From a virus: DNA of 34,719 nt. Every line of letters starts with the position of its first letter. Position 1 is the first letter of the stretch. Below are positions 21,320-33,560 of the stretch, one piece after another. A program made the translations under genes and the position numbers. The notes under the pieces are model-generated. The model worked only from the letters and a program-made list of their open reading frames with translations. It was not told the DNA's origin and did no database searches. The stretch spans positions 1-34,719 of IMG/VR virus record IMGVR_UViG_3300032311_000493. One strand, given 5' to 3'.

Positions 21320-22168
21320 ATGGATCCGTTTCTTGTCGATCAACCTACGGTTATCTCCTTTTCAGGGGGTCGCACTTCCGCTTACATGCTGTGGCGGGTA
21401 CTGCAATCTAACAATGGACTACCCAAAGAAGCCATAGTCTGTTTTGCTAACACCGGCAAAGAAGAAGAGGCCACGCTCCGGTTTGTAGACCGCTGCTCCA
21501 AAGAGTGGAATGTCCCCATCACTTGGCTGGAATATGCCGATGCGCCTGAAGTCAAAGACCGATTCAAACAGGTTACTTTTGAGACTGCCAGCCGCGAGGG
21601 TGAACCGTTTGAGGCCCTGATTCTGAAGCGGAAGTACCTGCCCAATCCTGTGAGCCGGTTCTGTACTGTAGAGCTTAAGGTTCGCACCATTCACCGGTAC
21701 TTGAAAGCCAACGGCTGGACAGAGTGGGACTCCATGATTGGAATCCGAGCCGATGAACAGCGTCGCTTGGCCAAGATTGGCAATCAAGACTATGGAAAAC
21801 ATGAAGAAAAGGTAGCCCCGCTTGGGAGAGTGGGCATTACCAAAGAATTGGTGGGTGAATTTTGGCGCTCTCAGCCTTTTGATTTAGAGCTGCCGAACAT
21901 GAACGGCGTTACCAAGCACGGCAACTGTGATCTCTGCTACTTAAAACCTGCTGGCCAGGTGTTGAGCTTGATTCAAGAGAAGCCCAGTCGTGCTATTTGG
22001 TGGGCCAAGATGGAGCAGGTCATTCAGTCTACCGGCCAGCTTACGGGTGACGGCGCAAGATTTCGCAGTGACCGGCCAAGCTATTCGCAGATGGCGTCTT
22101 TTACAGATCAGCAAACCGACATGTTTGACACCAACGAAGAAGGCATAGCTTGCTTCTGTGGCGATTGA
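21320..22168 (+). CDS. PAPS reductase / PP-loop ATPase-like protein
   Basis: A 282-residue protein with AGGAAG before its ATG. SFSGGRTSAYML (13-24) is the SGGxxS PP-loop of the PAPS reductase / adenine nucleotide alpha hydrolase superfamily, which binds ATP or PAPS through the pyrophosphate. CTVELK (115-120) matches the conserved C-T-x-x-x-K segment. Cysteines 203, 206 (GNCDLCYLK) and 278, 280 (ACFCGD) could hold an iron-sulfur cluster. Phages carry such genes widely; proposed roles are sulfur assimilation or DNA/tRNA thiolation (DndC relatives). The sequence does not decide between them. Confidence 0.8.
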   Translation: MDPFLVDQPTVISFSGGRTSAYMLWRVLQSNNGLPKEAIVCFANTGKEEEATLRFVDRCSKEWNVPITWLEYADAPEVKDRFKQVTFETASREGEPFEALILKRKYLPNPVSRFCTVELKVRTIHRYLKANGWTEWDSMIGIRADEQRRLAKIGNQDYGKHEEKVAPLGRVGITKELVGEFWRSQPFDLELPNMNGVTKHGNCDLCYLKPAGQVLSLIQEKPSRAIWWAKMEQVIQSTGQLTGDGARFRSDRPSYSQMASFTDQQTDMFDTNEEGIACFCGD

Positions 22169-22194: not shown

Positions 22195-22410
22195 ATGCTG
22201 ATCGACTACGCGCTCCCCACCATGAAGGCCGAAAAGGCTCTTAAAGATTTGCATGAAGCGATGACCGAGAGAAGGTACAAAGATGCCCTGAAGCTGGCAA
22301 TAGATGCCGGTAACAACATCCAAGACATACAGTACGCTGTAGTCCATGAGACCGAACAGTCCAAGATCCGCGAAAGCAAACACTTGACAACCGACAACAC
22401 AAATCTATAA
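22195..22410 (+). CDS. Small helical phage protein, unknown
   Basis: Seventy-one residues with a very strong TAGGAGGAACT ribosome site. MKAEKALKDLHEAMTERRYKDALKLAIDAG is a helical pattern I have seen in small phage hypotheticals. The last codons contain a consensus promoter for the downstream gene-free segment. Function unknown. Confidence 0.8.
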   Translation: MLIDYALPTMKAEKALKDLHEAMTERRYKDALKLAIDAGNNIQDIQYAVVHETEQSKIRESKHLTTDNTNL

Positions 22411-22411
22411 T
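22384..22411 (+). promoter_or_regulatory. Consensus sigma70 promoter before the structured RNA segment
   Basis: Exact TTGACA (22384-22389), 16-base spacer, exact TATAAT (22406-22411). It overlaps the 3' end of the preceding gene, whose stop is at 22408-22410. The predicted start is near 22418, immediately before the first stem strand of the RNA candidate. Confidence 0.8.
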
Positions 22412-22842
22412 CCGAACTGTTGCCGTAGCAAGCGACGAAAGTTAAGGCCGTTTACACATGCAATTTCGCCTTATCAAATAACCTCGGTCGGAGGGATATT
22501 TGCTAAGGTTGCTACCGGAATTGCAGTTGTAAGCGGCTTTTTTCGTTTCGGGACTGGGTAGATAACGGGTTAGCGCCGTTAGGTTAATCTCCTTTGTAGT
22601 AGTAGTTTAGAAACGCTGCTTCATGCGAACTACCCAGTTCCCTCCTCTACGGCATCCGCACTCCGAGCGTTATCACTGGGCCTGAATGGGCCGCGCGGAA
22701 GTAAACACCGGCACTGGTACTCCCCCAGTTTAAAAGCCGTCCAGCCTGTCAGCGAGGGACTGGGCAAGACGGAAGGGCAAGTGGTGAGACAAACCTTCCA
22801 TCGAACAAATCGCTGCCTCCAAGGAGTGCTGGTCTGGATTTC

Positions 22843-22882
22843 TCACTGGAAACGGTTTCCACTGACGTAGGGTAAACACCTA
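22843..22882 (+). repeat. Triple-palindrome element, copy 2 (degenerate)
   Basis: TCACTGGAAAC-G-GTTTCCACTGA (22843-22865, one mismatch from a perfect inverted repeat) followed two bases later by TAGGGTAAACACCTA (22868-22882), which has a one-base insertion compared with copy 3. The left GGGTAAACCC palindrome is absent. It lies in the 3' part of the RNA candidate. Confidence 0.8.
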
Positions 22883-22951
22883 GTCAAATCGCGCACAGTG
22901 ATAAATACAGGTGGGCAGGGGATGAACAGCCAAGGCTATCACCCTTGGTCA

Positions 22952-22971
22952 ACCGTGGGCGGTATTTTTTT
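22952..22971 (+). terminator. Possible terminator of the RNA candidate
   Basis: A short ACCG-TGGG-CGGT hairpin (22952-22963) is followed by ATTTTTTT. A second hairpin, CCAAGG/CCTTGG (22930-22948), lies just upstream. The 4-bp stem alone is weak, so termination is tentative. Confidence 0.45.
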
Positions 22972-23003
22972 GATGGGGAATATAACAGTTAGTTTTTTTG
23001 CAA

Positions 23004-23442: not shown

Positions 23443-24318
23443 ATGAGTGAAATGAAAGATACCGTAATAAAAAATGTACCTGCGGTAGCCATACGAATTG
23501 ATGGCGGGACTCAGTCCCGCACCAAAATCAACATTGATGCGGTAGAAGATTACGCTGCCAAGATGGCAGACGGCGTGGAGTTTCCGCCAGTTGTTGTGTT
23601 CTTTGATGGCAAAGACCATTGGCTGGCAGACGGTTTCCACCGCTATCACGCACTGAGAAAAATACAGAAGGCTAGTGTCCGGTGCCAAGTACAAAACGGC
23701 ACAGTCAGGGATGCCATCCTGTATTCATTTGGTGCCAATGGTATGCATGGCCTGCCCATGACCAACGAAGACAAGTGGCATATCGTTACAGAAATGGTAG
23801 GCGACTTTGAGTGGAGCGAATGGAGTGACCGCGAGATCAGTCGGCGCTGCCATGTGTCCCACATTTTTGTGGCCAAGGTTCGTTCATCAGTTGGCAAGGC
23901 AGATGAAGTTATTGAGAAGGCTCAAGAGTCGTCCAGTGAAGAGGTGGGCCGCAAGTATGTAGACAAACACGGCAACGTTTCCACCATGAAACCCGCCTCT
24001 AAAAAGAAGGAAGCTGTTAAAGAAGAAGAGCCCCCAGCGGAACCATCAGTGCCCGCGGCCGAAGCGGATAAGTTGCAGGAAACCATAGAGTTTCTGATCA
24101 AAGAGAACGAAGCGTTGACCGACAAGTTGGCAGCTGGTTCATCAGATGATCCTGAGTTCACAGCCAGAACCATCGAGGAATTGCGCGATGAAAACAAACA
24201 GTTGCGGATTGAGGTCAAGTCTTTGACCATCAGCCGCGATCAGTTCCAAGCAGAGAATGCCCAGCTCATGAAGCAGGTCAACTACCTTACCAAGAAGCTA
24301 AAGAAATTTGAAGTCTAA
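23443..24318 (+). CDS. ParB-like (ParB/Srx-domain) protein
   Basis: A 291-residue protein with an AAAGGAAG ribosome site. Residues 18-70 (IRIDGGTQSRTKINIDAV... VVVFFDGKDHWLADGFHRYHA) are a ParB N-terminal domain with its GxHR-like GFHRYHA motif. Residues about 108-150 (NEDKWHIVTEM...DREISRRCHVSHIFVAKVRS) are a KorB/ParB-type helix-turn-helix. The C-terminal 110 residues are acidic linker and coiled coil (ENEALTDKLA, RDENKQLRIEVKSL). ParB-domain phage proteins may bind CTP or act in DNA replication or regulation; there is no ParA partner here. It precedes helicase and primase. Confidence 0.8.
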   Translation: MSEMKDTVIKNVPAVAIRIDGGTQSRTKINIDAVEDYAAKMADGVEFPPVVVFFDGKDHWLADGFHRYHALRKIQKASVRCQVQNGTVRDAILYSFGANGMHGLPMTNEDKWHIVTEMVGDFEWSEWSDREISRRCHVSHIFVAKVRSSVGKADEVIEKAQESSSEEVGRKYVDKHGNVSTMKPASKKKEAVKEEEPPAEPSVPAAEADKLQETIEFLIKENEALTDKLAAGSSDDPEFTARTIEELRDENKQLRIEVKSLTISRDQFQAENAQLMKQVNYLTKKLKKFEV

Positions 24319-33472: not shown

Positions 33473-33506
33473 GGGGGGGTATGTATAAAAATGGAAACGG
33501 ATACCC

Positions 33507-33560
33507 AGGGTAAACCCTATGTCACTGGAAACGGTTTCCAGTGAGCTAGGGTAAACCCTA
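33507..33560 (+). repeat. Triple-palindrome element, copy 3 (complete)
   Basis: AGGGTAAACCCT (33507-33518), then a perfect 11+1+11 inverted repeat of half-site TCACTGGAAAC (33522-33544), then TAGGGTAAACCCTA (33547-33560). It sits in the gap between terS and the LexA-like gene, about 28 bases before the latter. It is the best-preserved copy. Confidence 0.9.

Follow-up and report, generated by a model that had tools for sequence, protein, structure and literature searches.

Few large structured RNAs are known from phages, and their functions are open questions. Two of them resemble the RNA that we describe here: ROOL (RF03087), which is found in phages and prophages and contains several pseudoknots, and GOLLD (RF02032), which sometimes has phage tRNAs in its linker. 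Both form RNA cages (PMC12286853).

We analyzed a 34,719-nucleotide stretch of viral DNA (positions 1 to 34,719 of IMG/VR record IMGVR_UViG_3300032311_000493; "the window"), for which a preliminary description had proposed a large structured RNA, either GOLLD-like or new. We give a probability of roughly 0.55 to our main reading, which is that positions 22384-22971 encode a large structured phage RNA, one of a new class with a modular build, and that this RNA acts in trans, as a scaffold or binding partner. All of the RNA features described below are on the + strand.

We compared the region to known RNA families. In Rfam 15, none of the 4227 families matched at the gathering threshold (group I and II introns and HEARO included), and a relaxed scan with E up to 10 gave nothing relevant in the RNA region. 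We also searched the window directly with the GOLLD and ROOL models, with E up to 10, and neither model matched; the ROOL search was run without a positive control. The whole-library scans gave no GOLLD match, and at the gathering level no ROOL match. So the proposal that the region is GOLLD-like, in the sense of belonging to that family, is not supported, and the alternative, that it is new, is supported.

The region is gene-free: no open reading frame of 50 or more amino acids lies wholly inside 22411-22897 on either strand. As the preliminary description had noted, there is a sigma-70 promoter at its edge (TTGACA at 22384-22389, 16 nucleotides, and TATAAT at 22406-22411). It matches the consensus at 12/12 positions, and the predicted start is near 22418. 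The preliminary description also correctly reported T-runs at 22538-22543 (T6) and 22965-22971 (T7). The second T-run follows a short terminator-like hairpin (ACCG-TGGG-CGGT; 22952-22971 with the T-run), which from its sequence is probably the 3' end in this phage. A clear terminator at the 3' end is seen in the window only, as the hairpin is not universal among homologs. (Just 5' of the RNA, at 21320-22168, is a gene similar to phosphoadenosine phosphosulfate reductase, phrog_424, a kind of auxiliary gene that is common in phages.) Folded as a single sequence, 22418-22975 has an energy of -215 kcal/mol, compared to -181 +/- 6.7 for shuffled sequences (z = -5.15). Low fold energy alone does not prove that there is an RNA gene, so we relied on comparisons to homologs.

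To find homologs, we started from a neighboring gene that encodes a ParB-like protein (23443-24318; phrog_1033). This search gave 41 viral loci, 24 of which have the RNA region by nhmmer. We then ran a degenerate pattern for the core of the RNA over 2.9 million viral contigs, where it matched 56 stretches, and a profile search afterwards brought the collection to 57 distinct core sequences, the window among them. In bacteria and archaea (genomes from 84,980 species), the core pattern had 7 matches, none of them homologous by nhmmer, and we rejected all 7 as chance. When we compared the RNA region to phage and plasmid records with blastn, the window's type of RNA (type 1) had no matches, and RNAs with other types of 3' domains (see below) had weak partial matches to three assembled spring phages. 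In three GenBank records with related RNA loci (MW202545.1, MW202753.1, and MW202484.1; L275, L276, and L277 in our collection), hypothetical proteins are called across the RNA. These proteins are probably spurious. In phage genomes that have been deposited, the RNA class goes unnoticed or is mislabeled as hypothetical proteins.

Covariation among the homologs supports a pseudoknotted 3' core (22655-22947), which the preliminary description had not worked out. We ran an APC-corrected G-test on all pairs of columns in the core; the top-ranking pairs were canonical and mutually consistent, and they revealed two pseudoknots. In an alignment of 44 sequences, the 46 pairs that we proposed (including a kissing candidate that we later rejected) were kept in 91.4% of cells, versus 38-42% if the pairing was slid. 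Compensatory changes, on both sides of the pair, occurred at 28 of the 46. The covariation score was 0.442, versus 0.06-0.08 for slid pairings and 0.17 for shuffled sequences.

The core opens with stem P1 (22657-22659/22667-22669), pseudoknot PK1 (22662-22665/22696-22699, with variation at all four pairs), and hairpin P2 (22679-22682/22689-22692). This part (22657-22699), which comes from the covariation analysis, recurs 5' of other types of 3' RNA. Stem P3 (22709-22712/22736-22739) is paired in 100% of cells, with compensatory changes at 3 of its 4 pairs, and its inner stem P3b (22713-22717/22725-22729) is paired in just 56% because the register varies among homologs. Stem P4 (22741-22744/22760-22763 and 22745-22747/22756-22758) is paired in 99.7% of cells and has four compensatory pairs. 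The loop of P4 (CAGCGA, 22750-22755) pairs with UCGCUG at 22810-22815 to form pseudoknot PK2, which is 100% paired. Compensatory changes affect 4 of the 6 pairs of PK2, giving variants such as CGAUGA/UCAUCG and CCGUGA/UCGCGG. Stem P5 (22771-22776/22794-22799) is 96% paired, with compensatory changes at all 6 pairs. (Our covariance model spans P1 to P5.) We have lower confidence in the long-range contact PK3 (CAA at 22790-22792 with UUG at 22945-22947): the pair 22792-22945 is 98% canonical (U-A in 31 sequences and A-U in 23), variation is seen at only 1 of the 3 pairs, and a cruder count of the motif was noisier. Between 22828 and 22944, a variable stem P7 (22828-22836/22908-22916) and a hairpin P8 (22919-22930/22935-22944) were read from individual sequences and folds. 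We rejected a kissing contact between the loops of P3b and P5 (UCUCACC/GGUGAGA), which was paired in only 75% of cells and had almost no compensatory changes.

The core is not coding, because nearly all of its indels are short (102 of the 113 indels relative to the window are 1 or 2 nucleotides). Any single frame is open across the core in at most 7 of 56 sequences, so relatives do not share a reading frame. In short, the region in the window is a conserved, covarying, non-coding RNA.

The loop of P7 also contains a palindrome (GGAAACGGTTTCC, 22848-22860) that recurs in the terminase region. We considered whether it was an operator or a pac site, but the homologous RNAs lack it, which marks it as an insertion into the variable loop. 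More broadly, a CACTGGAAACGGTTTCCAGTG palindrome and TAGGGTAAACCCTA-like repeats are common to the P7 loop (22844-22881) and to 33506-33560, which is the gap between the gene for the terminase small subunit and the next gene. These repeats are possibly sites for a regulator or for packaging.

Upstream of the core, the homologs seemed unrelated at first, and a common order emerged when we read them by their architecture. In most homologs, the promoter is followed by hairpin D, whose loop contains strand A5', and then by B5', an inner hairpin, A3', B3', and a T-run. In the window, this 5' domain occupies 22419-22543. The stem of hairpin D (22419-22423/22432-22436) is paired in 98% of cells. Its loop (22425-22431) forms the 7-bp pseudoknot helix A with 22509-22515 (93% paired, with compensatory changes at 5 of 7 pairs). 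Helix A joins this loop to the loop of stem B, a terminator-like stem (22447-22456 and 22459-22461 with 22523-22525 and 22528-22537) that ends at the T6 run. Stem B is paired in 99% of cells, with compensatory changes at 9 of 13 pairs. A pseudoknotted 5' domain had been proposed at 22423-22539; covariation upholds the pseudoknot, and we refined its pairing to helix A. In the homologs, the -35 and -10 elements are conserved at the same distance, with a mean of 8.8 of 12 matches versus 5.1 at random places, and in most of them the elements stop 10-15 nucleotides ahead of helix A.

The 5' domains fall into two sequence types, which we aligned separately. In the alignment that includes the window, 97.2% of cells are paired, versus 30-54% if slid. 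Type II has the same architecture (99.2% versus 25-53%). When we shuffled the upstream regions, the arrangement was absent from 46 of 57, and the top score was 16; most of the real regions score 17-29.

Between the T-run and the core is a slot whose content varies across phages. It may hold nothing (1-9 nucleotides), an RNA module closed by a stem, or an ORF of about 90 amino acids. The window has an RNA module at 22550-22642, closed by a 12-bp stem (22550-22561/22630-22641) that the preliminary description had already picked out. RNA modules are also found in L066, L072, L082, L033, L048, L096, L075, and L092. The ORF is missing from most members of type 1, the window among them. Among the homolog loci that we compared at first, all 23 matches to the slot ORF were directly 5' of the core. 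We then searched the viral contigs with the slot protein alone and found 43 loci (36 + 7). Many of these are on contigs that we already knew, and about half were not known to us before. By the covariance model, 33 of the 43 have the core RNA just 3' of the ORF (L122 and L141 are borderline); another locus (L125) is cut by the end of the contig. The remaining loci, on inspection, mostly have divergent 3' RNAs that open with the P1/PK1 motif, with a promoter and a pseudoknotted 5' domain upstream. Among the loci compared, the small protein occurs only next to RNAs of this kind. It has no relative in PHROG, Pfam, or PDB, and a fold search with its AlphaFold2 model, whose confidence is fair (pLDDT 84), had no significant match.

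Two other kinds of RNA structure were seen near these loci. Directly after the stop codon of the slot ORF, L112 (at 1768-1800) and other ORF-bearing loci have an H-type pseudoknot of the type GUUACCUG-U-CCCGG-CAGGUAAC-CCGGG, which varies in a compensatory way. And 5' of the RNA's promoter, L012, L033, L039, and L131 have more conserved RNA-like modules (GAATGCGTAGGCTGAT ... GCCGGAGATCAGCGCCGGCCACCA), one of which is also found as a slot insert in L033. There may be islands of several structured RNAs in these phages.

We also found that the 3' domain is exchanged. A pattern for P1 and PK1 only matched at least 120 stretches. With the matches to a second pattern added, we compared 125 tails: 23 are of the window's type, and the other 102 have unrelated 3' sequence and form clusters of 71, 10, 7, 7, and 5, plus two singles. 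The 5' domain is present in 85 of the 92 tails with enough upstream sequence, usually 7-30 nucleotides before P1 (a count made without a shuffle control). In the largest of the other clusters, covarying pairs are among the top-ranked pairs, less cleanly than for type 1. None of the 3' types that we sampled matches Rfam. In other words, other phages join the same front part, the 5' domain and the first helices of the core, to different 3' RNA domains, with at least five such types in about 100 more viral contigs. Counting all of the 3' types, well over a hundred contigs of uncultivated phages have an RNA of this class. Such an RNA class is absent from Rfam 15 and from the open-access papers that we searched, and we found no description of the modular architecture in those papers.

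How might such an RNA work? The constant order of promoter, 5' domain, slot, and core supports our main reading. Some homologs have just 1-9 nucleotides between the T-run and the core, too few for a second promoter, which implies that the core is transcribed through the terminator-like element. The simplest model has one promoter and two products. Host RNA polymerase would start near 22418, early in infection; some transcripts would stop at the U-run (about 125 nucleotides) and others would read through to give a long RNA of about 550 nucleotides. Conservation, covariation, and the position of the promoter back the preliminary description of a promoter-driven, multi-domain, pseudoknotted, non-coding phage RNA of about 550 nucleotides. 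By analogy to GOLLD and ROOL, the most likely role of the long RNA is as a folded scaffold or binding partner in trans, either as RNA only or with protein. In some phages, it would be expressed with the small protein from its own slot. The downstream genes have their own promoter after the RNA in most cases, which favors action in trans over a simple leader. (In loci such as L015 and L033, the next promoter, just after the core, is flanked by repeated CTAGATNTAG-like sites, which are possible operators.)

A broader picture, which we offer tentatively, is of a widespread superfamily of phage RNA machines built like exchangeable cartridges. In it, a constant, pseudoknotted 5' chassis would use its terminator-like element to control how much short RNA is made relative to long RNA, a slot would take a small protein or an RNA module, and the 3' domains would be interchangeable and have different targets in the host during infection. 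The class offers concrete constructs and predictions for testing the roles of large phage RNAs.

The main rival to action in trans is control in cis, which we consider possible but doubtful. Here, the 5' domain would be a regulated terminator (an attenuator), and the core, in the manner of HK022 put or EAR, would be a leader or antitermination element for the slot ORF and the downstream early operon. Those elements resemble our RNA in being RNA structures that lie close to where a phage or operon transcript begins and that are related to terminators. Consistent with control in cis, nearly all homologs have a T-run after stem B, the 5' domain is directly 5' of the ribosome-binding site of the slot ORF in ORF-bearing phages, and the unit is 5' of early genes (for a ParB-like protein or a helicase) in many relatives. 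Cases in which the next gene begins directly after the core, such as L085, would also fit a leader. But a fresh promoter usually follows the core, and in MW202545.1 the unit is located elsewhere, not 5' of the ParB-like gene. Also, put and EAR are much smaller and less constrained than the core, and usually no independent promoter follows them.

The terminator-like stem at the end of the 5' domain is strong and lies in the middle of the unit, so there could be two adjacent RNAs instead of one: a terminated sRNA of 125 nucleotides and a core that is processed or expressed independently. The insertions of variable length between them would fit. This is unlikely given the loci that lack space for another promoter, and given that the 5' domain and the 3' part occur together across several 3' types.

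An RNA for a replication origin (a primer or an R-loop RNA) is quite improbable. The RNA is near replication genes, and the cumulative GC skew of the window turns at about 21 kb, but that is also where the gene strand changes, so the turn is not independent evidence; and we would not expect an origin to exchange its 3' domain or to contain slot ORFs. Least credible of all is a unit like a type III toxin-antitoxin system, which would share with ToxI a pseudoknotted RNA, a leaky terminator, and (in ORF-bearing phages) the order of RNA, terminator, and ORF, but in our class the ORF is optional, the RNA in the window has no direct repeats like the tandem repeats of such antitoxins, there is a large 3' RNA domain, and the slot protein matches no toxin family or known fold.

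GOLLD and ROOL are among the closest known systems. Like ROOL, whose model has 574 positions, our RNA has pseudoknots and a similar length. Like GOLLD, it is large, pseudoknotted, and borne by phages, but it does not match the GOLLD model and it lacks a regular linkage to tRNAs: the window has no tRNA, and just 3 of 23 homolog loci have one (two of those are near-identical). Also, in GOLLD the 3' part is conserved and the 5' part less so (PMC12286853), whereas our class has a constant 5' domain and exchanged 3' domains. Large phage RNAs are a known kind; our results support that the combination of a constant 5' part, a slot, and exchangeable 3' domains is new.
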